Shown here: in pieces, positions 27,017 to 38,498 of the stretch
Numbering within the stretch: the stretch's first letter is position 1
Layout of the letters: the number at the start of each line of letters is the position of its first letter
From: Vaginimicrobium propionicum
GTDB lineage: Bacteria > Actinomycetota > Actinomycetes > Propionibacteriales > Propionibacteriaceae
Direction: 5' to 3'
DNA: 64,000 nucleotides
NCBI RefSeq assembly: GCF_900155645.1
Contig: NZ_LT706985.1
Location: forward strand, 124,001-188,000
Position numbers and translations under genes: made by a program
Notes under the pieces: generated by a model
What the model was told of the DNA's origin: nothing
The model's database searches: none
Seen by the model: the letters and a program-made list of their open reading frames with translations, nothing else

Positions 27017-28036
27017 ATGAAACTCAAAAAACTGTCAATTGGGGTAGCAGTTGCTGCCTTGGCGCTGAGCGGTTGCAGCACAGGTGTGGGGAATTCGACT
27101 CAGGCATCTGGTCAAGCTAGCGGGAATGCGGAAGGTATCTACCAGACTGATATACCACGCCCCGCATCATGCGATGATGAAACCCCCTATATCGCTGTGT
27201 CGTTACCGAACTTGACGAACCCTTACTACGTGTACATGAAAAAAGGGTTTGAAGATCAGGGGAAAGAGGCTGGCTTCAACGTTGAGGTTCAGGTGGCAGA
27301 CGATGATGATGCTGCGCAGTTGGCTCAGGTTACTGCCATGATTCAGAAAAAACCATGTGCAATTGGGTTGAATGCTGTTAAATCGGCTCCGGCCGCAGCC
27401 ATTGTCAAAGCAGCCAATGATGCTGGCATTCCGGTTTTTACCGTAAATGTCAATGTGGATCCTGACTCGTTGGCTTCTCAGGGAGGTCAAGTTGTACAGT
27501 ATCTGGGCGCAGACAATGTCCAAGGTGGAAAGCAAGCAGCCGAGTTGGTACTTAACGATTTCGGCAAAGATGCTGAATTGAATATCGGCTTAGTGACGGA
27601 ACCAGATGAAGGTCCAACGGTTGCTCGAGATGAAGGCTTCAAAGAAGGTATTTCGGTGAATCCAAATGCCAAGGTGGTCGCTGAAGTTGATGGCAATGTC
27701 AAACCAGATGATAGTTTGCGTGTTACTCAAGAGATGCTGCAAGGCAACCCGAATATTAATGCTATCTTCACTTCTACGGGGCCCGCTGCTTACGGTGCAA
27801 TCCAGGCGTTGGCTGGGTCAGGCCGTGACGTAAAAGTTTATGGTTTCTGTGCTGAAGGTGAATCGCTGACCGATGTTTACCCTGGGTGTGTCGCTCAGGA
27901 ACCAGAGCTCTACGGACAGCTGGTGGTTAAAGAAATCCGGGCTTGGCTTGATGGGGCGAAACCTGAACACGAGAAGTTAATGCCGCTCAAGACCTTCGTT
28001 ACTGGCGAAAAACCAGCCGAAAACGAGATCGGCTAA
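27017..28036 (+). CDS. Sugar ABC transporter substrate-binding lipoprotein (RbsB type)
   Basis: 339 aa. A lipoprotein signal with lipobox ALALSGC places the modified cysteine at residue 20. A Ser/Gly/Gln linker and the periplasmic-binding type I fold follow (IAVSLPNLTNPYYVYMKKGF, then IVKAANDAGIPVFTVNVN). Four more cysteines (about 54, 115, 275 and 285) may form disulfides, which is uncommon for RbsB. Ligand unknown; ribose, allose, psicose or another ketose is plausible from the operon. AAGGAG precedes the ATG by 5-6 nt. Confidence 0.92.
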   Translation: MKLKKLSIGVAVAALALSGCSTGVGNSTQASGQASGNAEGIYQTDIPRPASCDDETPYIAVSLPNLTNPYYVYMKKGFEDQGKEAGFNVEVQVADDDDAAQLAQVTAMIQKKPCAIGLNAVKSAPAAAIVKAANDAGIPVFTVNVNVDPDSLASQGGQVVQYLGADNVQGGKQAAELVLNDFGKDAELNIGLVTEPDEGPTVARDEGFKEGISVNPNAKVVAEVDGNVKPDDSLRVTQEMLQGNPNINAIFTSTGPAAYGAIQALAGSGRDVKVYGFCAEGESLTDVYPGCVAQEPELYGQLVVKEIRAWLDGAKPEHEKLMPLKTFVTGEKPAENEIG

Positions 28037-28056
28037 GACGGAAGGGGGAGATCGAC

Positions 28057-29574
28057 ATGCCGAATAGCAAGGGTTGGCAAGCAAACAATTTAGTCAAAAT
28101 CTATGGCGACAATACTGTGCTTAAGGGAGTGTCGATCTCCCTTAAGCCTGGGGAGGTAATAGGTCTAGTAGGACACAATGGAGCAGGTAAATCGACTCTA
28201 GTCAAGTGCTTGAGTGGAGCTATTCAGCCTGAAGATGGGGAACTTATTTTGGATGGTGAGCCAGTAAAATTCACTAGTCCGCAAGAAGCCATACGCGCTG
28301 GAGTGTCCACTGTTTATCAGGAACTAGCCCTATTATCTAATCTTTCTTTGACCGAAAATATCTTTTTAGGGAAAGAAATAACACGTCACGGTGTTTTAGA
28401 TAAGCGCGCCATGCAAGAGGAAGCGCAAAAACTTGTTGACGAATTCAACTTGGATGTAGACGTCAATAAGAAGCTGGTTCATTATCCGGTTGCCACGAGG
28501 CAGCTTTTAGAGATTGCTGTCGCGACTCACCGTAAGTGCAAATATCTGCTACTGGATGAGCCGACAACTGCTCTGGAAGCAGGCCAGATTGATAATGTGC
28601 TCGAGCTTATCCGGGATTTAGCCAAGCAACGAGGCATCGGTATTGTCTTCATCGATCATAAATTAAGTGAGTTGTATGCGGTTGCTGATCGGATTTTAGC
28701 CTTAGTAGATGGGCAGGTTGTTATCGATGCGGACGCCAGCGAGGTCGCTCAAGAAGATGTTATTAAAGCAATCACGGGCAAGGAAGAAATTGGCACGTCC
28801 AACGATTATGTGGGAAGAGCTTCGGCCTTATCAGCAGATATAGAATCCGCCACAGCTTTGCAAGTTGAACACTTAAAATCTGAAGCCGTTGGCGACGTTT
28901 CTTTTATCGCTCGTGAGGGGCGCATACTTGGCATATATGGCTTGGTCGGTGCAGGACGCTCGGAGACGCTGCGAGTTATCGCGGGCATAGACAAGATGAC
29001 AGGCGGAAAAATGACGCTGTTTGGAGATGCCTACGAACCAAAGCGTCCTATTGACGCAATTAAGAAGCAGGTGGCATTCGTAACCGAGGAGCGTAAGCAG
29101 GACGGCATTGTGCCGCTAATGAATAGCGCCGAAAACGCCACCTTGCCAATTCTTTCGAATTTTACAAAAGGTTTCTACATAGATGTGCGCCAGATGAAAC
29201 AAGCTGGCAGTGAGCTTATGGATCAGGTGAGCGTTCGCGGTGACCGAAATGCGCCAGTAGCTAGCTTATCTGGTGGTAACCAGCAAAAGGTTTTACTCGC
29301 TAGAGCTTTGGGTCAAAAGCCACGCCTACTATTGCTAGACGAACCTACTAAAGGTGTTGACATCGGCGTGAAAACAGAGATTCATGCGATGCTTCGTTCT
29401 TTAGCACACGATCGCGGTTTATCGGTTGTTGTGGTGTCCTCTGAGGAGGAAGAAATTCTAGCTCTCGCTGACGATGTAGTTATTTTCCAAAATGGAACAT
29501 GCGACGGGATGACGAGGCCTGTCGAAGATATGTCTATCGCTGGGCTGCGAGAAGCTGCTTGGTCAACACAATAG
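28057..29574 (+). CDS. Sugar ABC transporter ATP-binding protein with two ATPase domains (RbsA type)
   Basis: 505 aa with tandem ATPase domains. The first has Walker A GHNGAGKST and LLLDEPTTALE. The second has a degenerate P-loop GLVGAGRSE, signature LSGGNQQKV and LLLLDEPTKGVDIG, the classic RbsA/AraG pattern in which the second site is altered. GGGGGAG stands 6 nt before the ATG. The next gene starts 8 bp after its stop. Confidence 0.94.
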   Translation: MPNSKGWQANNLVKIYGDNTVLKGVSISLKPGEVIGLVGHNGAGKSTLVKCLSGAIQPEDGELILDGEPVKFTSPQEAIRAGVSTVYQELALLSNLSLTENIFLGKEITRHGVLDKRAMQEEAQKLVDEFNLDVDVNKKLVHYPVATRQLLEIAVATHRKCKYLLLDEPTTALEAGQIDNVLELIRDLAKQRGIGIVFIDHKLSELYAVADRILALVDGQVVIDADASEVAQEDVIKAITGKEEIGTSNDYVGRASALSADIESATALQVEHLKSEAVGDVSFIAREGRILGIYGLVGAGRSETLRVIAGIDKMTGGKMTLFGDAYEPKRPIDAIKKQVAFVTEERKQDGIVPLMNSAENATLPILSNFTKGFYIDVRQMKQAGSELMDQVSVRGDRNAPVASLSGGNQQKVLLARALGQKPRLLLLDEPTKGVDIGVKTEIHAMLRSLAHDRGLSVVVVSSEEEEILALADDVVIFQNGTCDGMTRPVEDMSIAGLREAAWSTQ

Positions 29575-29582
29575 GAGTCGAT

Positions 29583-30251
29583 ATGGAATTAAATGATAGT
29601 GAACTTGAAATCATTAAAGATAGAGTTCGGAATGAAGCTCAGGCGGTTGCGAAGATGTCGGACTATCTCGATGAAACTTTCGTGTTGACTGCCAGGTTCT
29701 TATTTGGATGTCAGGGGAAAGTGTTCGTCGCGGGATCAGGCACGTCGGGTACTGTCGCTCGCCGGATGGCGCATCTTTTCTCCGTTTCTGGTACGCCAGC
29801 GGTTTTTATTCAGCCGATGGATGCCTTACACGGTAGCTTAGGTGCAATCACTGAAAAAGACATTGTGATAGTCATTTCCAAGGGTGGAGGATCATCCGAG
29901 ATCAATGATCTAGCTGTACGTTGCAAGGGACTCGGTGCTGGCGTGGTCGCTCTAACTTGTACTGCAGGTACACCGTTGTGTGAGATCGCTGATATTAGTG
30001 TGGTAACTCCTTTGCCCTCAGATGCTGATATGGGTGGTGTGTTGGCGATGGGCTCGACTTTGGCTCATGGAGCTTGGGGAGATGCCATGGCTTGCCTTCT
30101 CATGCATGCTCGGGGCTATAGCTGGCGGACGGTTCTTTATTCGCATCCGGGCGGGGCTGTGGGCGCCCGTACAGAAACCCCGGACGAAGTTTCGAGAATC
30201 CAACTAACCCCACTGAGCCGAAGTGAGCTTGAGAACACGTGCAACAGATAG
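29583..30251 (+). CDS. SIS-domain phosphosugar isomerase-like protein
   Basis: 222 aa consisting mainly of one SIS domain (about 15-190). It shows KVFVAGSGTSGTVARRMAHLF (substrate phosphate loop), FIQPMDALHGSLGAI and VIVISKGGGSSEINDL. Related proteins are arabinose-5-P isomerase (KpsF/GutQ, without the CBS domains) and 6-phospho-3-hexuloisomerase, so an aldose-ketose phosphate isomerisation is likely. ATG 29583 is preferred: it follows the ATPase stop by 8 bp and the SIS domain starts shortly after. The last 13 bases overlap the next gene. The exact sugar cannot be told. Confidence 0.85.
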   Translation: MELNDSELEIIKDRVRNEAQAVAKMSDYLDETFVLTARFLFGCQGKVFVAGSGTSGTVARRMAHLFSVSGTPAVFIQPMDALHGSLGAITEKDIVIVISKGGGSSEINDLAVRCKGLGAGVVALTCTAGTPLCEIADISVVTPLPSDADMGGVLAMGSTLAHGAWGDAMACLLMHARGYSWRTVLYSHPGGAVGARTETPDEVSRIQLTPLSRSELENTCNR

Positions 30252-30886
30252 CTCCTTGGGTACTCGCCTCTGAAAAAAAGATTGGCGCTAGCATCTACGC
30301 AGTTCCCAGTTCTGAGCGTATCGAGGTAGCTGAGGTGGCAGACGCAGCTGGGTTATGGCTCCACTGCGACATGATTTTGAGTCAGAAAGGCTCGAAGTTC
30401 TCCAATACAGGAGTCAGTGTGGTAGACATCGTTGCCATTTCAAAAATGTTGCCACGCGCCAGAATTGATGTGCACGTTATTGCAGAAAATCTTCATAACT
30501 ACTCTGACGCTGTTCAGGCGGTGAGTACAGCTTTGAGAGATGCTCATATCTGTCGTTGGTCAGCTGAAGCAAAAATTCTGACAAAACTAATGGGTTTACG
30601 TCACAGCTCCAATCAATTTTTTCAAGAAATATGGGCTGGGCGTGCAGGAGATGGTCAGCTGATTCCCGAAGCTGATGGGGGACTAGGCATGCTGATTAGG
30701 CCTGGGAGTAAAGATGAAGCTAACCCTGATTTGGCAATTAAATATAGAGAAATTGTTCACAATAAATCATTAGGTTTCGATGGAGGGATTACTTCAGCTG
30801 TAGCAGAGCGGCTTAATGAAGTTAAACCAGACTATTTAGTGATTGGGCGTGCACTATTTTCAAGCAATTCATCCAACAATTGTTGA
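30239..30886 (+). CDS. Ribulose-phosphate 3-epimerase-like protein
   Basis: 215 aa, a divergent TIM-barrel epimerase. It begins IAPWVLASEKK (RPE: IAPSILSAD). It keeps the four metal-ligand positions: H42 and D44 in LHCDM, H79 in DVHVI, and D181 in DGGIT. The glycine-rich phosphate loop near the end (VIGRALF) is present. LHCDM replaces the HxDxMDG block of true RPE, and the allulose-6-P epimerase AlsE is an alternative identity. Together with the SIS and aldolase genes it suggests breakdown of a rare ketose phosphate. GTG start lies within the end of the SIS gene. Confidence 0.8.
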   Translation: MQQIAPWVLASEKKIGASIYAVPSSERIEVAEVADAAGLWLHCDMILSQKGSKFSNTGVSVVDIVAISKMLPRARIDVHVIAENLHNYSDAVQAVSTALRDAHICRWSAEAKILTKLMGLRHSSNQFFQEIWAGRAGDGQLIPEADGGLGMLIRPGSKDEANPDLAIKYREIVHNKSLGFDGGITSAVAERLNEVKPDYLVIGRALFSSNSSNNC

Positions 30887-30895
30887 AAGGTTGAA

Positions 30896-31567
30896 ATGAG
30901 CGATAAAGTTCCCGTCGAATTGTATTTGGACACCGCAGACAGAGCCGATGCTGAACCGTGGTTGGCTACCGGGCTGTTTCGCGGGCTTACTACAAATCCT
31001 AAACTTCTGGATCAGGCCGGGCTTGGCGTAAATGATATAAGTACAGTGTATGAATGGGCTGGCTCCAGTACCCGAACTGTGTTTTTTCAGGTTTGGGGAC
31101 GTTCTCTAAAGGAAATGACTGAGGCTGCCTACCATCTGCTGGAAATGGCTCCTAGAGCCGGTATTAAGATCCCATGCACGCAAGATGGTATCAAGCTAAC
31201 GAAACGCCTAAGCGGTGAAGGCGTTACCACGTTATTAACTGCAGTTTATGCATCGAAACAAATGTTCGCGGCTAGTGTCGCTGGCGCATCCTACGTTGCC
31301 CCATATTTCAATCGCGCTTTTCTTGCTGGCCGGCCAGTGCTGGATGAGCTATCCAAAATGGTAACAATTTGCCCGCAAGACGGGAGTGGTCCACTGATCC
31401 TGGCGGCATCCATCAAATCTGCTAACCACATGGTGGAGATGGCGCTATCAGGTGTGCGATGCTTCACCATCTCCACTCAAGTCGCGGCTGATATTATCCA
31501 AGACGAATTATCCGTCCGAGACACGTTGGATTTCGAAAATCACATGGCAAAAGTGTTGTCGCGTTAG
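30896..31567 (+). CDS. Transaldolase/fructose-6-phosphate aldolase-like protein
   Basis: 223 aa, the size of the short FSA/TalC class. It has ELYLDTADRAD (FSA: LYLDTSD), GLTTNPKLLDQAG, and the Schiff-base lysine K91 in IKIPCT. Later come TAVYASKQMFAASVAGASYVAPYFNR and ILAASIKS. The reaction should be aldol cleavage or dihydroxyacetone transfer on a ketose phosphate. It is the last gene of the ABC operon, 9 bp after the epimerase. Its stop lies 3 bp from the stop of the convergent VOC gene. Confidence 0.87.
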   Translation: MSDKVPVELYLDTADRADAEPWLATGLFRGLTTNPKLLDQAGLGVNDISTVYEWAGSSTRTVFFQVWGRSLKEMTEAAYHLLEMAPRAGIKIPCTQDGIKLTKRLSGEGVTTLLTAVYASKQMFAASVAGASYVAPYFNRAFLAGRPVLDELSKMVTICPQDGSGPLILAASIKSANHMVEMALSGVRCFTISTQVAADIIQDELSVRDTLDFENHMAKVLSR

Positions 31568-31570
31568 TTC

Positions 31571-32116
31571 TTACCAGTACAGTCTTGAGAAGACGGTGCG
31601 TTTCATGATTCGTCCAACCATATTGCCGAAGAACTTCAGCGGTAATCGGTTGGCGTGAAGATCGATAATCTCGATTAAGTTGCCGTCTGGGTCTTTCATA
31701 AACGCCCAGTGGGCTCCTCCCATGAACTGCACATCGGTAACGAATTGGACGCCTTTGGCCTCTAGTTCAGCTTTGACGCGCGGCACATCGCGAACAGCAA
31801 TCGCAACATGCTGATAGCCAGGCCGGTTCCACACCGTGTGGTCTAGCTCAGGTTGCGTCGGTGAAAACTCGAAGATCTCCAACATCGCTGAAGACTGGGT
31901 CGCCAAAAAGCCGAGCCTGATTTCTAGACCTTCTTGGCCGTACAGGCCGGCTAGCTCATTAGCTTTTTCGCCATCGACTTTTAGCTCGTTGACTAGGTGA
32001 AAGCCGAACATTTCATGGTACCAATTCACAGCTTCTTCAAAAGAAGAAACTGTAACGCCAGCATGATGTAAACCGTGCAAATGGGCGCGCCGGTTAAGCG
32101 AATCCAGAATGCTCAT
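31571..32116 (-). CDS. VOC-superfamily protein (glyoxalase/epimerase-like)
   Basis: 181 aa with two beta-alpha-beta-beta-beta modules. The likely metal ligands are present: histidine in LHHAGVTV, glutamate in MLEIFEF, histidine in YQHVAIAV and glutamate in NLIEIID. This His-Glu-His-Glu set occurs in glyoxalase I and methylmalonyl-CoA epimerase. The reaction here is unknown. The tail after about 155 is basic and aromatic and outside the domain. It is the last gene of the minus-strand operon and overlaps the preceding SCP2-like gene as ATGA. Confidence 0.8.
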   Translation of the reverse strand: MSILDSLNRRAHLHGLHHAGVTVSSFEEAVNWYHEMFGFHLVNELKVDGEKANELAGLYGQEGLEIRLGFLATQSSAMLEIFEFSPTQPELDHTVWNRPGYQHVAIAVRDVPRVKAELEAKGVQFVTDVQFMGGAHWAFMKDPDGNLIEIIDLHANRLPLKFFGNMVGRIMKRTVFSRLYW

Positions 32117-32931
32117 TTCGCGTAGCCTCCTACTAACAGCATGAGATCACCCAACTCAGCACCGTATTCGGGAGCACCTTCCATGATGATCTTCGACTGG
32201 ACGGTCGACTCGATCATGTCGTCAACATCGAGCAATATACCTAGCGCCGAGCGAGGGGAGTCGAAAGCCATCGCGAAGAACGGTTGCGAACGGGTATAAC
32301 GTCCGCGCACCGCTTTCGTGCGTCCGCCCTTTACCCGAATATAGGCTGCCAACTCGTCATCACCATTGACCCTTAGCTCATAAACCCGATCTGGTTGTTT
32401 CTTAGCCCAAGTTTTAATAGTGGGATGACCCGCTTTATTTAACTGCGAGATTCCCGTAGTCAACAGGTAGAACATACATTTGACTAGGAGGCGCTGATCC
32501 TCCACATTCTCAGGTGGGGTAGTGGCACCCAGCAACTTAGACATGGTCAGCAAGGCTTTCACTGTAGCTAGTAGCAGTGGCCCAGCGGCCAGAATTCCGC
32601 GAATCTTGGGCAGATTCATTTTCCCGGTGAAGAAATCGTTGAGTTTCTCACGAGAGGGGAACTCAATCTCTACATTTGGTGCCGGATGGGAGCCTAATTT
32701 AACAGTTATCTCGCCATCATCAACGATCAGATGAGTAGCCAACCTAGGTGGGCGTCCGTCTACCGAGGTGCCACCAGCGGCAAGAGCGCAGATCTGCACG
32801 ACCCCGTTCTTGCCGCTGAAGGCTTTAGCTAGCCCCTCGGTGGACTCGATGATTGGTTTAAGCACCGGCACGACTGCATTCAAGAAAACGGTCGTTTGAT
32901 ACTTGGCCTCATCTCCACTCAAACTAGCCAT
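32113..32931 (-). CDS. Tandem SCP2-like domain protein A (unknown function)
   Basis: 272 aa without signal peptide or clear membrane helix. Two regions look like sterol-carrier-protein-2-like folds. The first has DDGEITVKLGSHP, then IEFPSREKLNDFFTGK (about 65-107). The second has AAYIRVKGGRTKAVRG and AMAFDSPRSALGIL (about 190-230). It resembles the product at 36108-36860 in the same operon, so the two are probably paralogues. SCP2 domains bind lipids, CoA esters or other hydrophobic ligands; the ligand here is unknown. Position between transketolase and VOC genes suggests a role in the same pathway. It starts 2 bp after the transketolase C gene. Confidence 0.6.
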   Translation of the reverse strand: MASLSGDEAKYQTTVFLNAVVPVLKPIIESTEGLAKAFSGKNGVVQICALAAGGTSVDGRPPRLATHLIVDDGEITVKLGSHPAPNVEIEFPSREKLNDFFTGKMNLPKIRGILAAGPLLLATVKALLTMSKLLGATTPPENVEDQRLLVKCMFYLLTTGISQLNKAGHPTIKTWAKKQPDRVYELRVNGDDELAAYIRVKGGRTKAVRGRYTRSQPFFAMAFDSPRSALGILLDVDDMIESTVQSKIIMEGAPEYGAELGDLMLLVGGYAK

Positions 32932-32933
32932 TG

Positions 32934-33941
32934 CTATACCTCATCGTCCCAGTCGTCATCTTCTTCAACTTCTACCCTCATCAGGTCGCGAGCAGTTTGA
33001 AGAATGCCATTCTCGTCATAGCCGTAGTGGGCAAACAGATCCTCGGGTTGACCAATCATCGCCCACTCATCGGGAACGCCCAATTTACGGAATGCGAAAC
33101 CTTTGCCGGTGGTTGCTGCTACTGCTGCTACCGCTGTGCCCAAACCTTGGGCGGTATTAGCGTCTTCGACGGTGATGATGCGTCTTGTTTGGGTGACGGC
33201 GTCCTTGATGGCCTGTTCATCCAGCGGCTTTAATGAATACAAGTCTATGACGCGGGCTTGGATACCGTCCTCGTTGCGTAGCCGTTCGGCGGCTTGAGCG
33301 GCACGCCAAACGCCAGATCCGGTAGCCAAAATAGCTAGGTCATTGCCGTCAGCCAGAGTATGTGAGCCGCCTACTCTAAAGTCCGGTATCGGTTCGGTAT
33401 AAACCTTCTGATCAAACCCACGGTTGATTCGAATATAGAACGGACCAGGTGTCTCAAAGGCGCATTCGACAGCTTGCATGGTGGCCAGGCCGTCAGCCGG
33501 GCACATCGAAACAAGGTTAGAAATCGAACGCAGAATGCCAATGTCTTCTGGGCTTTCATGGGTAGAACCGGCAGTCCCGAAGCTTAAACCGGAATGGGTT
33601 GCAATCACTTTGACATTCGCGTTGCCGTAGCAAATGTCGGTACGCAACTGTTCCAGCGCGCGCATGGTAGCGAAAGCTGCGAAAGTGGAGACGAACGGTA
33701 CGAAACCGCACTTGGCCATGCCGGCAGCCATGCCGAACATATTTTGTTCAGCAATACCAACATTGAAGAAACGATCAGGGAATTCGGTTGCTAGTAGGCC
33801 AATTTTTGTTGATTTAGCTAGGTCGCCAGAGAATCCAACAATCTCGGGATGTTGGTGAGCTAATTCGACGAGTGTACGGCCATAAACCTCAGCAGTGGCC
33901 AGGTCGGTGCCATCCAGCATCGTATAAGTCAAGCCTGCCAT
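32934..33941 (-). CDS. Transketolase C-terminal subunit (split transketolase)
   Basis: 335 aa corresponding to the pyrimidine-binding and C-terminal domains of transketolase. The conserved glutamate that activates thiamine diphosphate lies in NVGIAEQNMFGMAAG. FVSTFAAFA, FIRINRG and the C-domain with VIDLYSLKPLDEQAI follow. It must pair with the N-terminal subunit encoded directly upstream (2-bp gap). The short acidic C-terminal tail (EVEEDDDWDDEV) is unusual. Two-gene transketolases are common for specialised pathways and in archaea; housekeeping actinobacterial transketolase is normally one chain. Confidence 0.92.
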   Translation of the reverse strand: MAGLTYTMLDGTDLATAEVYGRTLVELAHQHPEIVGFSGDLAKSTKIGLLATEFPDRFFNVGIAEQNMFGMAAGMAKCGFVPFVSTFAAFATMRALEQLRTDICYGNANVKVIATHSGLSFGTAGSTHESPEDIGILRSISNLVSMCPADGLATMQAVECAFETPGPFYIRINRGFDQKVYTEPIPDFRVGGSHTLADGNDLAILATGSGVWRAAQAAERLRNEDGIQARVIDLYSLKPLDEQAIKDAVTQTRRIITVEDANTAQGLGTAVAAVAATTGKGFAFRKLGVPDEWAMIGQPEDLFAHYGYDENGILQTARDLMRVEVEEDDDWDDEV

Positions 33942-33943
33942 TA

Positions 33944-34807
33944 TCAGTTCTCCTTAATCTTGGCTAAGCGCGCCTGGTAGTGCTGGTCTATTGACTCGCG
34001 AGCTTTGTCGGCTTTGTCTCCACCGAAAGAGCCATAGTGCCATTTGTAGTCACCGGCGATAAAGTCAATGCCCTCGCCTTTGACAGTGTTAGCAATAACC
34101 ACGCTGGGCTGATCTTTAGTTGCCTTGGCTTCGTCAAATGCCTCAACGATGGCTGGGATCGAAGAACCATCAATATCGATAACATGCCAGCCGAAAGCAC
34201 GCCACTTATCAGCGAATGGCTCTAGCGCCATGACAGTTTCTGTCGGTCCATCAATCATCGCCTGGTTACGGTCAACGATGGCAACTAGATGATCTAGCTT
34301 GAAGTGGTGAGCAGCCATGGCGGCTTCCCAAATTGAGCCTTCATTGCATTCACCGTCACCCATCATGCAGTAGACCCAAAAGTCGCGCCCAGAAAGTCTG
34401 GACGCTGCTGCCATGCCAGCCGCGATAGACAGCCCGTGTCCTAGGGAGCCAGTTGATACTTCAACACCAGGCACTTTCTTAGCGTCTGGGTGGATGCCAA
34501 GTGGAGAGCCAGTGTGGTTATATTCCTTCAACCAATCTTTCGGGAAGCAGCCTAAGTCAGCTAATACCGGCGCAAAACCGACGCCTGCGTGCCCTTTAGA
34601 TAACACGAACCGATCACGGTCCGGGTCATCCATCTGTTCAGCTGAATAATTCATGGTGTGGTGGTACAGCACAGTGAGAACATCCATAGCAGACAATGAT
34701 CCGCCGATATGTCCTGAACCTGCCCAAATAACAGTTTCTAGGGTTAACCGACGTAACTCGTGTGCTTTGTCCTCTAGGCGCCGCCACAAAGCGGCATCAA
34801 TACTCAT
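33944..34807 (-). CDS. Transketolase N-terminal subunit (split transketolase)
   Basis: 287 aa with the diphosphate-binding domain. It has SGHIGGSLSAMDVLTVLYHH, FVLSKGHAGVGFAPVLADLG, and the TDP/metal motif GDGECNEGSIWEAAM followed by VAIVDRNQ. It transfers a two-carbon ketol unit together with the C subunit. The donor and acceptor are not readable. The ATG overlaps the stop of the upstream aminotransferase gene by one base (TAATG), implying coupled translation. Confidence 0.92.
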   Translation of the reverse strand: MSIDAALWRRLEDKAHELRRLTLETVIWAGSGHIGGSLSAMDVLTVLYHHTMNYSAEQMDDPDRDRFVLSKGHAGVGFAPVLADLGCFPKDWLKEYNHTGSPLGIHPDAKKVPGVEVSTGSLGHGLSIAAGMAAASRLSGRDFWVYCMMGDGECNEGSIWEAAMAAHHFKLDHLVAIVDRNQAMIDGPTETVMALEPFADKWRAFGWHVIDIDGSSIPAIVEAFDEAKATKDQPSVVIANTVKGEGIDFIAGDYKWHYGSFGGDKADKARESIDQHYQARLAKIKEN

Positions 34808-36090
34808 TAAATATCCTTTCCGAGAATCTTGTTAATACGTGGACGAACAGCTTTGTACGCCTGATCGGCGACTTCTAATGCTCGCTCGATGTCAGCGTCG
34901 CTAACCGACGCATTCATAAACAGATTGTGGTGGTTGACGAAGAAAACTCCGCGTCGCACACATTCAGCGACGAAAGCTTGGTGGATCTTAAAATCATTGT
35001 CAACGCGATCTTCGAAAGCGGTGGTGCGCATGTACCACATGGCTGGCTCTCCACTAACTTTCAGTGTAAAACCGTTGTCCTTAGCGACCTGCACCAGACC
35101 GGAAGTTAATTCCTTGCCTTTTTCGGTGCAAATCTTTGCCACATCAATTTCGCGCATTTTCTTGATACAAGCTAACGCAGCTGCCATAGGGACAGCAGAT
35201 AGCCAGTAAGAGCCGGTGTAGAACACTGAAGCCGCAGCCTCTTTGAGCTCTTCCTTGCCGGTTAGCGCCGAGATATTCCAGCCATTCGCTAGCGCTTTGC
35301 AATAGCAGGCCAGGTCAGCTTCAAACCCGTAGTGGACGTCAGAACCGCGCACGTCCAACCTGAAGCCGCAACGTACATCGTCGATAATCAAGACGACGCC
35401 TTCTTGGTTGCATAACTGGCGAACTTTTTGCCAGTAACCATCAGGCGGCAGCATATTGTCTTCAAAAATGGGGTGATGATATGGGGTGGCGATTAGACAA
35501 GCCACATTGCCCTTATGCTGAGCGAAAGTCCTCTTTAAGGCGGTGATATCACCGAATTCGGTGTACACCGAGTCGGCAATGTCGTTCATTGTGATACCGG
35601 CATAGCCGCCCTTTTGGGTCCAGCCTGCAACACCGTGGTAGCTGCCTCTAAACATCACGATTTTGTCGCGTCCCGTATAAGCGCGGGCGGTCATTACAGC
35701 CATAGTGGTCACGTCGCCGCCATTTTTGGCGAAGAACGCCCAATCCGCGCTGGAGACCGTCTCCGTTAAAAGCTCTGCCAACTCCACCATCTTTGTGGAC
35801 GGCAGCACTGTGCAGTTTGAAATATTCATCTGCTCGGTGACTGCGGCATTAACGTCTGGGTCGTTGTAGCCGAGGATGTTTGGTCCATAGGCAGCAGTGA
35901 AATCGAGATATTCGTTGCCGTCAACGTCCCAAAAGTGGCTGCCTTGAGCATGATCTAGGTAGAGCGGATATGCCGAGATTGGCATAAAGCAGCCTTCGGC
36001 AGGCCCAAGATGGCCGTAAATGCCACCAGGGATGACTTTGGTGGCTCGTTCGAACCACTCCGAACTTTTTGGGTGTTCATATATGTCCAT
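34807..36090 (-). CDS. Class III PLP aminotransferase, glutamate-1-semialdehyde aminomutase-like
   Basis: 427 aa. The fold-type I order is clear: SSEWFERATKVIPGG at the N-terminus, the cofactor phosphate region FFAKNGGDVTTMA, then the PLP-ring aspartate D237 in LIIDDVRCGFR. K265 in CYCKALANG is the Schiff-base lysine. In HemL-like enzymes the DEV motif has glutamate after the aspartate; here it is a second aspartate (D238). It is unlikely to be the haem enzyme because no haem gene is near. It may interconvert an amine and an aldehyde or ketone used by the transketolase or the neighbouring aldehyde dehydrogenase (inference). Confidence 0.85.
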   Translation of the reverse strand: MDIYEHPKSSEWFERATKVIPGGIYGHLGPAEGCFMPISAYPLYLDHAQGSHFWDVDGNEYLDFTAAYGPNILGYNDPDVNAAVTEQMNISNCTVLPSTKMVELAELLTETVSSADWAFFAKNGGDVTTMAVMTARAYTGRDKIVMFRGSYHGVAGWTQKGGYAGITMNDIADSVYTEFGDITALKRTFAQHKGNVACLIATPYHHPIFEDNMLPPDGYWQKVRQLCNQEGVVLIIDDVRCGFRLDVRGSDVHYGFEADLACYCKALANGWNISALTGKEELKEAAASVFYTGSYWLSAVPMAAALACIKKMREIDVAKICTEKGKELTSGLVQVAKDNGFTLKVSGEPAMWYMRTTAFEDRVDNDFKIHQAFVAECVRRGVFFVNHHNLFMNASVSDADIERALEVADQAYKAVRPRINKILGKDI

Positions 36091-36107
36091 GAGATTCCTA
36101 TCGCTAT

Positions 36108-36860
36108 TTAGGCCTGCAGGTAACGCGGAACCAAGCTCAGTAGCTTGTTGAATTCGTCGAGAAGGGGCACGAAACCGCCTAATTCAATATCGTGATGGCC
36201 AATTGCTTCGTAGCTGCCGATTTCCCCTCGCAGCACCTGACCGGCAACGTCGATATTCGAGAAAATCATCTTTGCGCGCGCTGCAGGGTTTAATCCTTCA
36301 ACAATTTTTACTTTGTGACCACGCACCCGCGCTATTAGCCCAGAGCCATCTCTAACGGCTACCTGCAGATCTCCGTCGGGCATTCTGGCAGCAATCTGGA
36401 CGCCCAGCGGATCCGAATTTGCGATCTCCGCTAGCGCAAATACGGCAACATACAAGGTCATCACCGCGTTAGCACGGGAAAAATCTTGGTTTTTTAAGTC
36501 TTCAGCGCTAGGAGCCAAATATTTAGTTAGTTGGTCAGTCAGCTGAGTGAATGGGCCTTTAAGGAAATCGATCTTACGCAAACCCTTCAGCGGGATGGGG
36601 TTACCTGTCCCGGCAAACATTTTGTTGACTGCCTTAGCGCTCGGGAAGCCGAGGTTTATAGTATTTCTTCCGGCGCCCAAGTGATGAGTGATTTCTCCAT
36701 CGTTAATAGCTAGCCGCACCGTTGCTGCCGGACTAATCAACTGGATGATCTCGTGAACTCCGTCGATTATTCCTTGAGAAACCGAGTCATATTTTGGCAG
36801 CTGTTCCAAGGTGCGAAGTACGGCGTTCAGGTTTACCCGTGCCATAGTTGTTTCGTCCAC
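36108..36860 (-). CDS. Tandem SCP2-like domain protein B (unknown function)
   Basis: 250 aa, first gene of the six-gene minus-strand operon. Like protein A it has two SCP2-like regions. One has INDGEITHHLGAG and LGFPSAKAVNKMFAG (about 51-82). The other has IARVRGHKVKIVEGLNP, AKMIFSNIDVAGQVLRGE and a final LLSLVPRY. Matching blocks occur in the same order in protein A. No catalytic residues are evident. GTG 36860 is chosen because GGGGAGG lies 5 nt upstream; an ATG at 36845 is the alternative. The promoter must lie in the 87 bp shared with the divergent dehydrogenase gene. Confidence 0.6.
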   Translation of the reverse strand: MDETTMARVNLNAVLRTLEQLPKYDSVSQGIIDGVHEIIQLISPAATVRLAINDGEITHHLGAGRNTINLGFPSAKAVNKMFAGTGNPIPLKGLRKIDFLKGPFTQLTDQLTKYLAPSAEDLKNQDFSRANAVMTLYVAVFALAEIANSDPLGVQIAARMPDGDLQVAVRDGSGLIARVRGHKVKIVEGLNPAARAKMIFSNIDVAGQVLRGEIGSYEAIGHHDIELGGFVPLLDEFNKLLSLVPRYLQA

Positions 36861-36947: not shown

Positions 36948-38498
36948 ATGGATTTTGCAGCATCAGCCCTTATCGAACGGATAAATATCCCAGCCTGGCA
37001 GCAAGACCACTCAGCTCGTGCCAGCCAAGACATAATTAACCCAGCCAGTGGGGCAAATATTATTTCAGTACCTGTCGGAAATGCTGATGACGTTAGCTTG
37101 GCTTTCAAGAATGCTCGTCGAATCCAAGCCGATTGGGCGCTAACACCGCCATCCGAGCGCGCGCTGGTGCTCAAGAAATTTGCTGATTTAGTTCACCGCC
37201 ATCGTGAACAGATCCTTGACTTGATTCAGTTAGAAACTGGCAAAGCTAGATTCCATGCTTTAGATGAATTAATGGACGTGCTTCTGGTGGCTCGTTATTA
37301 CGCAAAGAAAGGTCCGATGTGGCTTAGAACGCGCAATGTTCCAGGTGCCATTCCCGGTGCTACTAAAGCCAGAGTGATGCGTTTTCCGGTGGGGGTAGTT
37401 GGAATAATCGCCCCCTGGAATTACCCGCTTAGTTTGGCTATAACTGACGGATTGGCAGCAATAATGGCGGGTAACGCTATCGTCCAAAAACCAGATTCAC
37501 AAACTCCATTAGCAGCCTTAGCTGGAGTCGGTTTGCTGGAAGAAGCTGGAATGCCTAAAGGATTATGGCAGATCGTTACTGGTCCTGGTGGTCAAGTAGG
37601 TTCTGCGATTGCAGATAGTTGCGATTTCCTGATGTTTACTGGTTCTTCAAAGACTGGCCAGGCCTTAGGCGGCCAGATCGGCAATAGATTAGTTGGTTAT
37701 TCGGCAGAATTGGGCGGTAAAAACCCGATGGTTGTTGGTGAGGGCTGTGACTATAACCGTGTTGCTGAGATAGCCACCAGAGCATGTTTTGCTAATGCTG
37801 GTCAGCTGTGCATTTCGATAGAGCGGGTCTACGCTGTCGGCTCGGCCTATGAAGATTTCTCTAAGGCGTTTGCTCGTCGGATTTCGAAGATGAAATTGGG
37901 TGTCGATGATTCATGGGAGACTGAAATGGGCACGCTATCTGGACCATCTCAATTTGAGACTGTTTGTGCTCACGTTGATGATGCCGTCGCCAAAGGCGCA
38001 AAAGTGCTTATTGGGGCGAAAGCCAGGCCAGATATTGGTCCCTTCTTCTACGAACCTACGCTGTTGGCCGATGTGCCAGAGGGTGCGCTTTGTCGGCGGA
38101 ATGAAACCTTCGGGCCGGTTGTTTCCATCTATCCGGCAACCAGTCTTGAAGACGCTGTCGCCCAAGCTAATGACACAGATTATGGGCTAAACTCCTGCGT
38201 ATTTTGTGCAGAAGATAAAGATGCCCAATGGGTTGCTGAACGACTCAATAGCGGCATGGTCACCGTAAATGAGGGCTATGCCCCCACCTGGTCGGCGCTG
38301 GACGGGCCTTCAGGAGGATGGGGGATATCCGGGATAGGTTCTCGTCACGGCCAGCAAGGCTTGCTGAAATATACCAAAGCCAAAACCATTGGCTCGATGG
38401 CGTCCTGGTTGCACATGGGCGGACCAGCATGTATGAGTAGAAACGTTTGGGCGCCGATGTTAGAACAGGCAACTAATGCTATGAAGTGGATGCCGTAG
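36948..38498 (+). CDS. NAD(P)-dependent aldehyde dehydrogenase, succinate-semialdehyde dehydrogenase (GabD2) type
   Basis: 516 aa. It oxidises an aldehyde to the acid. It shows the cofactor loop GIIAPWNYPLSLAI, FTGSSKTGQALG, the catalytic glutamate in AELGGKNP and catalytic C288 in NAGQLCISIER. The last block is characteristic of GabD2-like succinate-semialdehyde dehydrogenases. The substrate may be different here, given the divergent aminotransferase operon. TAGATT lies at 36936-36941, 6 bp before the ATG, with no Shine-Dalgarno sequence, so a leaderless transcript is likely. The 3' end overlaps the hrpA frame. Confidence 0.9.
   Translation: MDFAASALIERINIPAWQQDHSARASQDIINPASGANIISVPVGNADDVSLAFKNARRIQADWALTPPSERALVLKKFADLVHRHREQILDLIQLETGKARFHALDELMDVLLVARYYAKKGPMWLRTRNVPGAIPGATKARVMRFPVGVVGIIAPWNYPLSLAITDGLAAIMAGNAIVQKPDSQTPLAALAGVGLLEEAGMPKGLWQIVTGPGGQVGSAIADSCDFLMFTGSSKTGQALGGQIGNRLVGYSAELGGKNPMVVGEGCDYNRVAEIATRACFANAGQLCISIERVYAVGSAYEDFSKAFARRISKMKLGVDDSWETEMGTLSGPSQFETVCAHVDDAVAKGAKVLIGAKARPDIGPFFYEPTLLADVPEGALCRRNETFGPVVSIYPATSLEDAVAQANDTDYGLNSCVFCAEDKDAQWVAERLNSGMVTVNEGYAPTWSALDGPSGGWGISGIGSRHGQQGLLKYTKAKTIGSMASWLHMGGPACMSRNVWAPMLEQATNAMKWMP

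Follow-up and report, generated by a model that had tools for sequence, protein, structure and literature searches.

The window analysed here is a stretch of 64,000 nucleotides from Vaginimicrobium propionicum (contig NZ_LT706985.1, positions 124,001 to 188,000), the genome of which is a single contig of 2.01 Mb. On its minus strand, at 31571-36860, six open reading frames (ORFs) follow one another with gaps of 17 bp or less and two start/stop overlaps: in gene order the junctions are a 17-bp gap, a TAATG overlap, two successive 2-bp gaps and an ATGA overlap. They constitute a six-gene operon, as had been read from these gaps and overlaps in a first-pass annotation made from the sequence alone, and the ORF coordinates agree with that reading. 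The same annotation had recognised a class III aminotransferase, a split transketolase (TK) and a VOC protein, and the identities of the aminotransferase, of both TK halves (TK-N and TK-C) and of the VOC protein are supported by Pfam and NCBIfam. This operon, its counterparts in other bacteria and the pathway that it may encode are the subject of the present analysis. Its genes and one divergent neighbour are as follows.

36108-36860, minus strand: SCP2-A, the first gene, with a GTG start and GGGGAGG upstream
34807-36090, minus strand: FumI-like class III aminotransferase
33944-34807, minus strand: TK-N, the N-terminal (ThDP-binding) subunit of transketolase (Pfam Transketolase_N, 168 bits; 6YAK, 260 bits)
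32934-33941, minus strand: TK-C, the C-terminal subunit of transketolase, with an altered substrate site (Pfam; 6YAJ, 233 bits)
32113-32931, minus strand: SCP2-B, next to TK-C
31571-32116, minus strand: VOC/glyoxalase-fold protein (Pfam Glyoxalase, 63.5 bits)
36948-38498, plus strand: aldehyde dehydrogenase of SSADH-like type, transcribed divergently from the operon (NCBIfam PRK09407, 687 bits against a cut-off of 521)

A consensus scan of the operon strand between 36700 and 37100 found no promoter-like or terminator-like sites.

The first five genes form a cassette that is conserved in other genomes. A scan of genome contigs with the window aminotransferase gave 575 relatives, the best 80 of which were taken as loci for comparison, and a cassette was regarded as complete when tblastn placed all five core genes within 8 kb, on one strand and in the same order. 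SCP2-A, the aminotransferase, TK-N, TK-C and SCP2-B were found complete in this conserved order in 60 of the 80 loci; an ORF-based count gave 56 of 80, TK-N having been missed by ORF calling in L007, L010 and others. A genome-neighbourhood survey for the set of aminotransferase, split TK and SCP2 proteins had been suggested in the first-pass annotation, and the conservation of five genes in 60 of 80 loci exceeds chance. Carriers include Arcanobacterium, Trueperella, Mobiluncus, Mobilicoccus, Austwickia, spirochaetes and many Clostridia; the cassette is no local oddity and is present across Actinomycetota, Spirochaetes and Clostridia.

The 20 incomplete loci comprise eight that end at contig edges, one (L027) without a recognisable SCP2-A, and 11 of a short form consisting of SCP2-A and the aminotransferase only (L060, L065-L069, L072, L073, L077, L080 and L081; L068 is also cut short). 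SCP2-A adjoins the aminotransferase in 78 of the 80 loci. When the 11 short-form genomes were searched for TK-C, a cassette-type gene was found elsewhere in one of them (G295; 50% identity, with Ala at the Asp position discussed below), and the best match in the other 10 was an ordinary split transketolase. Because 10 of the 11 short-form genomes are without a cassette-type TK, the set divides into two modules, SCP2-A plus aminotransferase and SCP2-B plus transketolase, an arrangement that fits one carrier per enzyme. Among 57 related genomes, including that of the window (G000), SCP2-B occurs in G000 only, and the distribution of the cassette is patchy. One aminotransferase match (G070:C4:16526-17797) contains a single in-frame TAG and may represent an assembly error or a decayed gene. 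The combination had not been recognised as a described pathway in the first-pass annotation, and a literature search covering open-licence PMC papers likewise found no description of this gene set. The cassette is real and conserved, and apparently undescribed.

The two flanking proteins had been called SCP2-like and paralogous, and both statements are borne out. Searched singly against Pfam and NCBIfam, SCP2-A and SCP2-B of the window gave no match, and the A1 and A2 profiles gave nothing useful against PDB sequences; among their relatives, a Pfam SCP2 match was obtained for 17 of 38 aligned SCP2-A sequences (best 4e-10) and for one of 36 SCP2-B sequences. AlphaFold models of SCP2-A (pLDDT 95.4) and SCP2-B (pLDDT 93.2) were matched by Foldseek to SCP2/UbiJ domains (E about 2e-4) and to SCP2 (E about 1e-4), respectively. 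In comparison with an SCP2 domain by VIA-align, residues 129-246 of SCP2-A gave a Z of 11, and residues 147-270 and 15-134 of SCP2-B gave 12 and 9.4; the SCP2 identity came only from such fold comparison and from single relatives. SCP2-A and SCP2-B are paralogues by hhalign (98.8%, E 1.3e-16), and SCP2-A is internally duplicated in tandem, its N half matching its C half (91.8%, E 7e-7). The two halves of SCP2-B gave no direct match with each other (E 0.3); the N halves of the two proteins match each other (1e-11), as do the C halves (1e-8). By these comparisons, both flanking proteins are double SCP2-fold proteins and would serve as lipid carriers. Their structural matches include mosquito SCP-2 with a bound C16 fatty acid, and UbiJ, the SCP2 protein of ubiquinone synthesis. 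UbiJ holds a lipid intermediate for enzymes; it differs from the cassette proteins in having a single SCP2 domain and in belonging to an unrelated pathway.

The aminotransferase resembles FumI (PDB 6HBS/6HBV), which serves as the aminopentol aminotransferase in the detoxification of fumonisins. FumI is its closest solved relative (6HBS, 306 bits; best glutamate-semialdehyde aminomutase (GSAM), 183 bits), and over the full length the cassette enzyme is closer to FumI, with 154 identical residues among 395 aligned (39%), than to GSAM 4E77, with 117 among 393. When the 81 aminotransferases of the 80 loci and the window were aligned, 131 positions were at least 95% conserved: 50 are common to FumI and GSAM, 41 are found in FumI only, 10 in GSAM only and 30 in neither. 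Positions shared with FumI only include YGH at 25-27 (the SPVR stretch in GSAM), D238/R240, W296 and HN at 388-389 (Glu-Ala in GSAM), and these replacements of GSAM motifs are present in 77-81 of the 81 sequences. Arg and Glu at these sites of GSAM have substrate roles. An identity as HemL/GSAM was rejected, since TIGR00713 gave 218 bits and its equivalog cut-off of 527 was not reached; the window genome encodes a separate GSAM homologue (429-aa frame) with the GSAM-like SPVRA motif. FumI acts on a long-chain 2-amino-3-hydroxy compound, which is without a 1-hydroxyl, and we know of no transketolase or SCP2 partner of FumI. It is described as deaminating hydrolysed fumonisin B1, a sphinganine analogue, to a 2-keto compound (PMC4845651), and FumI-related enzymes have been assayed with pyruvate (PMC9858248). 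Judged by its sequence, the cassette enzyme is proposed to be a sphingoid-base : 2-oxoacid aminotransferase.

The nearest solved relative of both TK halves is the split transketolase of Carboxydothermus hydrogenoformans (6YAJ/6YAK), which has the same two-subunit layout. The cassette pair is a transketolase: its Pfam matches are above cut-off, it has the ThDP-binding N domain together with the pyrimidine and C-terminal domains, and the active-site His residues are kept. Among 64 cassette sequences (63 loci and the window), His116, His128, Ser44 and Arg174 of TK-C are conserved in all 64, His116 and His128 being the active-site His, and His33, His73, His106 and His257 of TK-N are conserved in at least 62 of 64. 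The substrate site of TK-C is different. Ala replaces the Asp of the GEDG motif in all 64 sequences (Ala124 in the window), and the Arg of the ATR motif has given way to Ala in 57, Ser in four, Gly in two and Thr in one (Ala17 in the window), so that neither the Asp nor the Arg is found in any of the 64. We take this Asp to be residue 424 of the human and 469 of the Escherichia coli enzyme, and the Arg to be residues 318 and 358, respectively. Both residues are kept in the C. hydrogenoformans enzyme, unlike in that of the cassette, and also in 10 of 10 ordinary split transketolases of other Clostridia, which served as a control, and in the two full-length transketolases of the window genome. 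A sugar-phosphate transketolase was rejected because the canonical substrate-site Arg and Asp are absent in all 64 TK-C sequences. Variants of E. coli transketolase at Asp469 prefer non-hydroxylated aliphatic aldehydes, and the loss of Arg and Asp is a substitution that would be expected where a lipid chain replaces a sugar chain. The window genome also has a second split TK pair (G000:C1:302711-304572, equivalent to L088:7712-9573) followed by an MFS transporter. It is about 40% and 38% identical to the cassette pair, has lost ATR and GEDG in a different way, and is a candidate for a transketolase of the DesAB (steroid-17,20-desmolase) type or another special one.

Sphingolipids are fats of animal cell membranes, and neutral ceramidase (PF04734) was used as an independent marker of sphingolipid use. 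In the co-occurrence tests the aminotransferase stood for the cassette, and SCP2-B did so for the relatives of the window genome. Ceramidases were counted when full-length or nearly so, at more than 300 bits in the Arcanobacterium sample and at E of 1e-50 or lower in the Vallitalea and Austwickia samples; the match in G169, which covers profile positions 68-509, was counted. In the Arcanobacterium ihumii sample of 59 genomes, ceramidase is present in seven of eight genomes with the aminotransferase against none of 51 without it (Fisher p 2e-8), one of these 51 (G112) having a 33.9-bit partial match that was counted as no ceramidase. The corresponding figures are six of six against none of 70 among 76 genomes of the Vallitalea sample (p 5e-9) and three of six against five of 72 among 78 genomes of the Austwickia sample (p 0.013), where all three p values treat kin genomes as independent and hence are too small, which should be set against the reading developed below. 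Pooling 189 distinct genomes gives 16 of 19 with the aminotransferase against 5 of 170 without it, or 16 of 20 against 11 of 226 when the 57 window-relative genomes are added. Ceramidase and cassette lie on one contig in G067, and in L015 a two-domain ceramidase is encoded some 5 kb upstream of the cassette, separated from it by asparagine-related and permease genes. At the family cut-off, PF04734 is matched in 29 of 50 cassette genomes, 17 of the 57 window relatives and 8 of the 59 genomes of the Arcanobacterium sample. Many Clostridia show weak partial matches (one to six per genome, about 19-43 bits, in frames mostly of about 450-650 aa), and these were rejected as ceramidases, similar matches being present in relatives without the cassette.

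Because the aminotransferase is FumI-like, the transketolase is without its sugar-contacting residues and ceramidase co-occurs with the cassette, we infer that the substrate is a sphingoid base. The operon is probably catabolic, serving the breakdown of sphinganine, sphingosine and close long-chain 2-amino-1,3-diols. Neutral ceramidase, in the many carriers that possess it, would supply the sphingoid base from ceramide, and SCP2-A would present it to the FumI-like aminotransferase. This enzyme would transfer the amino group at C2 to a 2-oxoacid, which would be pyruvate if FumI is a guide, to give a long-chain 1,3-dihydroxy-2-ketone and an amino acid. Such a ketone would share its HOCH2-CO-CH(OH)- head with a ketose, and for this reason the transketolase could cut between C2 and C3. 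With SCP2-B holding the ketone or the aldehyde, the split transketolase would thus release a fatty aldehyde and transfer the ketol unit, two carbons long, to a sugar phosphate, through which it would enter the pentose phosphate pathway. The aldehyde dehydrogenase might then oxidise the fatty aldehyde, an OYE/FadH-like reductase encoded at five loci might reduce the unsaturated products of sphingosine, and a TetR protein at 13 loci might provide regulation. Where present, the VOC protein might epimerise C3.

We lean towards the full form of this route, which would be independent of oxygen. After transamination at C2, a split transketolase specific for lipids would recover the C2 head group in sugar phosphates and set the chain free as a fatty aldehyde, and each of the two enzymes would have a tandem-SCP2 carrier of its own. 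Such a route would need no sphingosine kinase, sphingosine-1-phosphate lyase or oxygen, and the bacteria that use it would be Actinomycetota, Spirochaetes and Clostridia from animal as well as marine habitats. The literature search, which covered open-licence PMC papers, found no transaminase or transketolase route for sphingoid bases. Sphingoid bases are abundant host signals and antimicrobial lipids, and we know of no account of how anaerobes of the gut, urogenital tract and skin might consume them. If the proposal is true, the cassette genes could serve as markers of sphingolipid removal by microbes, the transketolase would be an example of one adapted to lipids, SCP2 proteins would gain a defined role in bacteria, and there would be a large new pool of FumI-like enzymes, which may detoxify fumonisins. 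The bacterial route for host sphingosine in Pseudomonas aeruginosa, sphBCD, is similar in that a ceramidase belongs to the same regulon (PMC3900636, PMC11893366). There, sphBC encode a periplasmic cytochrome c and an oxidase, which promote sphingosine metabolism (PMC11893366, PMC3900636). The P. aeruginosa route differs in needing this oxidase and cytochrome c, together with a predicted, dispensable aldolase, and the passages of these papers on the route describe no transketolase or SCP2 protein.

Several observations weigh against a breakdown of sphingoid bases. PF04734 has no match in the window's own genome. A full-length ceramidase is found in 12 of the 50 cassette genomes and is missing from 38: none was found in the five tested spirochaetes, Mobiluncus curtisii or Mobilicoccus caccae, and the Clostridia among the 50, except two Vallitalea, show weak partial matches or none. 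Hosts of this kind would need free sphingoid bases, another amidase or a different substrate. Conversely, a full-length ceramidase occurs without the cassette in 6 of 56 window relatives (none with SCP2-B) and in five genomes of the Austwickia sample. The transketolase step is not universal and is dispensable in some hosts, as there are 11 short-form loci and 10 genomes without a cassette-type TK. Transketolase normally handles 3S substrates and natural sphinganine is 3R, for which reason a C3 epimerase would be useful, and the VOC gene is present in only 21 of 80 loci. The identity of the aminotransferase to FumI is only the 39% given above, and the best NCBIfam name of the neighbouring aldehyde dehydrogenase is succinic semialdehyde dehydrogenase.

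Some of these observations would also suit the same chemistry run forward: the transketolase would extend a fatty aldehyde with a C2 ketol unit, the resulting ketone would receive its amino group from the aminotransferase, and a sphingoid base would be produced without serine palmitoyltransferase. All the steps are reversible in principle, the cassette occurs in three phyla, no full-length ceramidase was found in the five tested spirochaetes or in Clostridia besides Vallitalea, and a protein of about 430 aa encoded 3' of the cassette in L045, L050, L052, L055 and L059 leaves room for a lipid-modifying partner. Such a biosynthetic role is nevertheless unlikely, because a ceramide hydrolase is associated with the cassette in three clade samples and because the distribution is patchy, with SCP2-B only in G000 among the 57 relatives, which is as expected of an accessory trait. 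In addition, the neighbours scanned (40 proteins by Pfam; 469 ORFs clustered) included no recognisable acyltransferase or head-group enzyme, and the closest relative, FumI, is used in the deaminating direction in the work described in PMC4845651 and PMC9858248.

It is a little less probable still that the cassette degrades some other long-chain amino alcohol (a 1-deoxysphinganine-type or capnine-like compound, or a fungal analogue such as hydrolysed fumonisin) instead of host sphingoid bases. C2 ketol transfer needs a 1-hydroxyl, which is absent from 1-deoxy compounds and fumonisins, and the ceramidase association in the three clade samples also speaks against it. In its favour, 38 of 50 carriers are without a full-length ceramidase, the record titles of many carriers point to ruminant and other gut samples, and hydrolysed fumonisin is a substrate of FumI (PMC4845651).

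A steroid side-chain pathway like that of DesAB, in which the split transketolase would cleave a C2 ketol side chain and the SCP2 proteins would carry the steroid, seems very improbable. SCP2 folds bind sterols, and the OYE of five loci has the bile-acid protein BaiCD as its best NCBIfam match, below cut-off. DesAB shows that the substrate assigned to a split transketolase can be a hydrophobic C2 ketol: the enzyme is assigned to the cleavage of steroid side chains (PMC3735941, PMC12876203), and the C2 unit is believed to be channelled into the pentose phosphate pathway (PMC3735941). Compared by description only, des operons differ in containing a hydroxysteroid dehydrogenase (desC or desE) and a transporter (desABCD type), whereas the cassette has an aminotransferase and SCP2 carriers. 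The Pfam scan of 40 neighbour proteins, set against 469 neighbour ORFs clustered in all, picked up no hydroxysteroid dehydrogenase next to the cassette; single dehydrogenase-like neighbours are an NAD-epimerase family protein in L082 and a 2-hydroxyacid dehydrogenase in L032. Furthermore, side-chain cleavage offers no obvious task for a FumI-like aminotransferase, and some of the carriers, namely Vallitalea, Oceanirhabdus and spirochaete assemblies, have titles in which no animal host is named.

The first-pass annotation had sketched an aminotransferase acting on a ketone, a transketolase and a hydrophobic intermediate held by SCP2 proteins, with no substrate named, and had called a rare-sugar or aminosugar pathway equally possible. 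Its interpretation is partly supported: the outline fits, and the equal standing of a sugar pathway is not upheld. Such a pathway might be suggested by the sugar-ABC/SIS/epimerase/transaldolase cluster next door on the other strand and by a second divergent class III aminotransferase or double class II aldolase upstream in seven Clostridia loci, yet it is the least likely of these alternatives, because TK-C has lost the two canonical sugar-contacting residues, Arg and Asp, the aminotransferase groups with FumI, two SCP2-fold carriers are present, ceramidase tracks the cassette in three clade samples, and the sugar cluster is convergent, with its transaldolase, epimerase and SIS genes unmatched in the neighbour rows compared.

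This sugar-uptake cluster (27017-31567, plus strand) is convergent with the operon, 3 bp from it, and encodes a substrate-binding protein, an ABC ATPase, a KdsD/GutQ-like SIS isomerase, a divergent ribulose-phosphate epimerase homologue and an FSA-like transaldolase. Its ABC genes aside, it has no counterparts in the neighbour rows compared across the cassette loci.

The VOC gene, found near the cassette in 21 of 80 loci, is an optional member. Its residues H18, E80, H103 and E149, which by analogy we take to be metal ligands, are conserved in 21, 21, 21 and 20 of the 21 sequences (one is cut short); the metal-ligand set is complete, and the best solved matches are glyoxalase-family proteins at 33 bits. 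The VOC superfamily holds metal-dependent epimerases and glyoxalase. Since the gene is present in just 21 of 80 loci, a role as an alpha-carbon epimerase/isomerase of the hydroxyketone, acting on C3, is only a guess.

The aldehyde dehydrogenase adjoins four cassettes, those of the window, Trueperella (L004) and Mobilicoccus (L008 and L017), the other copies being 56-58% identical to that of the window, and its gene is oriented divergently from the operon in all four; it recurs within Actinomycetota and is possibly a fatty-aldehyde oxidiser that would belong to the pathway. In the neighbour survey, 469 ORFs of at least 90 aa, up to four per side, were clustered, and 40 neighbour proteins, including three next to the second split transketolase, were compared with Pfam; several had no match, which leaves room for a further partner. 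Most neighbour families present in at least three loci are confined to loci, largely of Clostridia, that look closely related. Recurrent neighbours are a nucleoside phosphorylase-family gene (9 loci), RmuC (10 loci) and a glycine-transporter family gene (7 loci), and an ABC ATPase family beside 12 loci was taken as a common gene class. The families that cross phyla are TetR and the OYE/FadH-like reductase, both in Clostridia and spirochaetes; the nearest solved relatives of the latter are NCR and 2,4-dienoyl-CoA reductase.

Upstream of SCP2-A in L042, L045, L050, L052, L055, L059 and L070 lie a divergent second class III aminotransferase, 23-28% identical to that of the cassette, and a double class II aldolase, which is present in all seven; the pair may be a parallel unit or unrelated. 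Downstream of SCP2-B in L045, L050, L052, L055 and L059, which are related loci, three genes on the same strand encode proteins of about 430, 245 and 313-329 aa, with no Pfam match at 1e-5. The double class II aldolase and the 430-aa protein could be relevant to the pathway. Finally, near the cassette in L035 (6842-10069), glycoside hydrolase 3 domains are joined to an endonuclease/exonuclease/phosphatase domain, a fold class that also contains sphingomyelinases.

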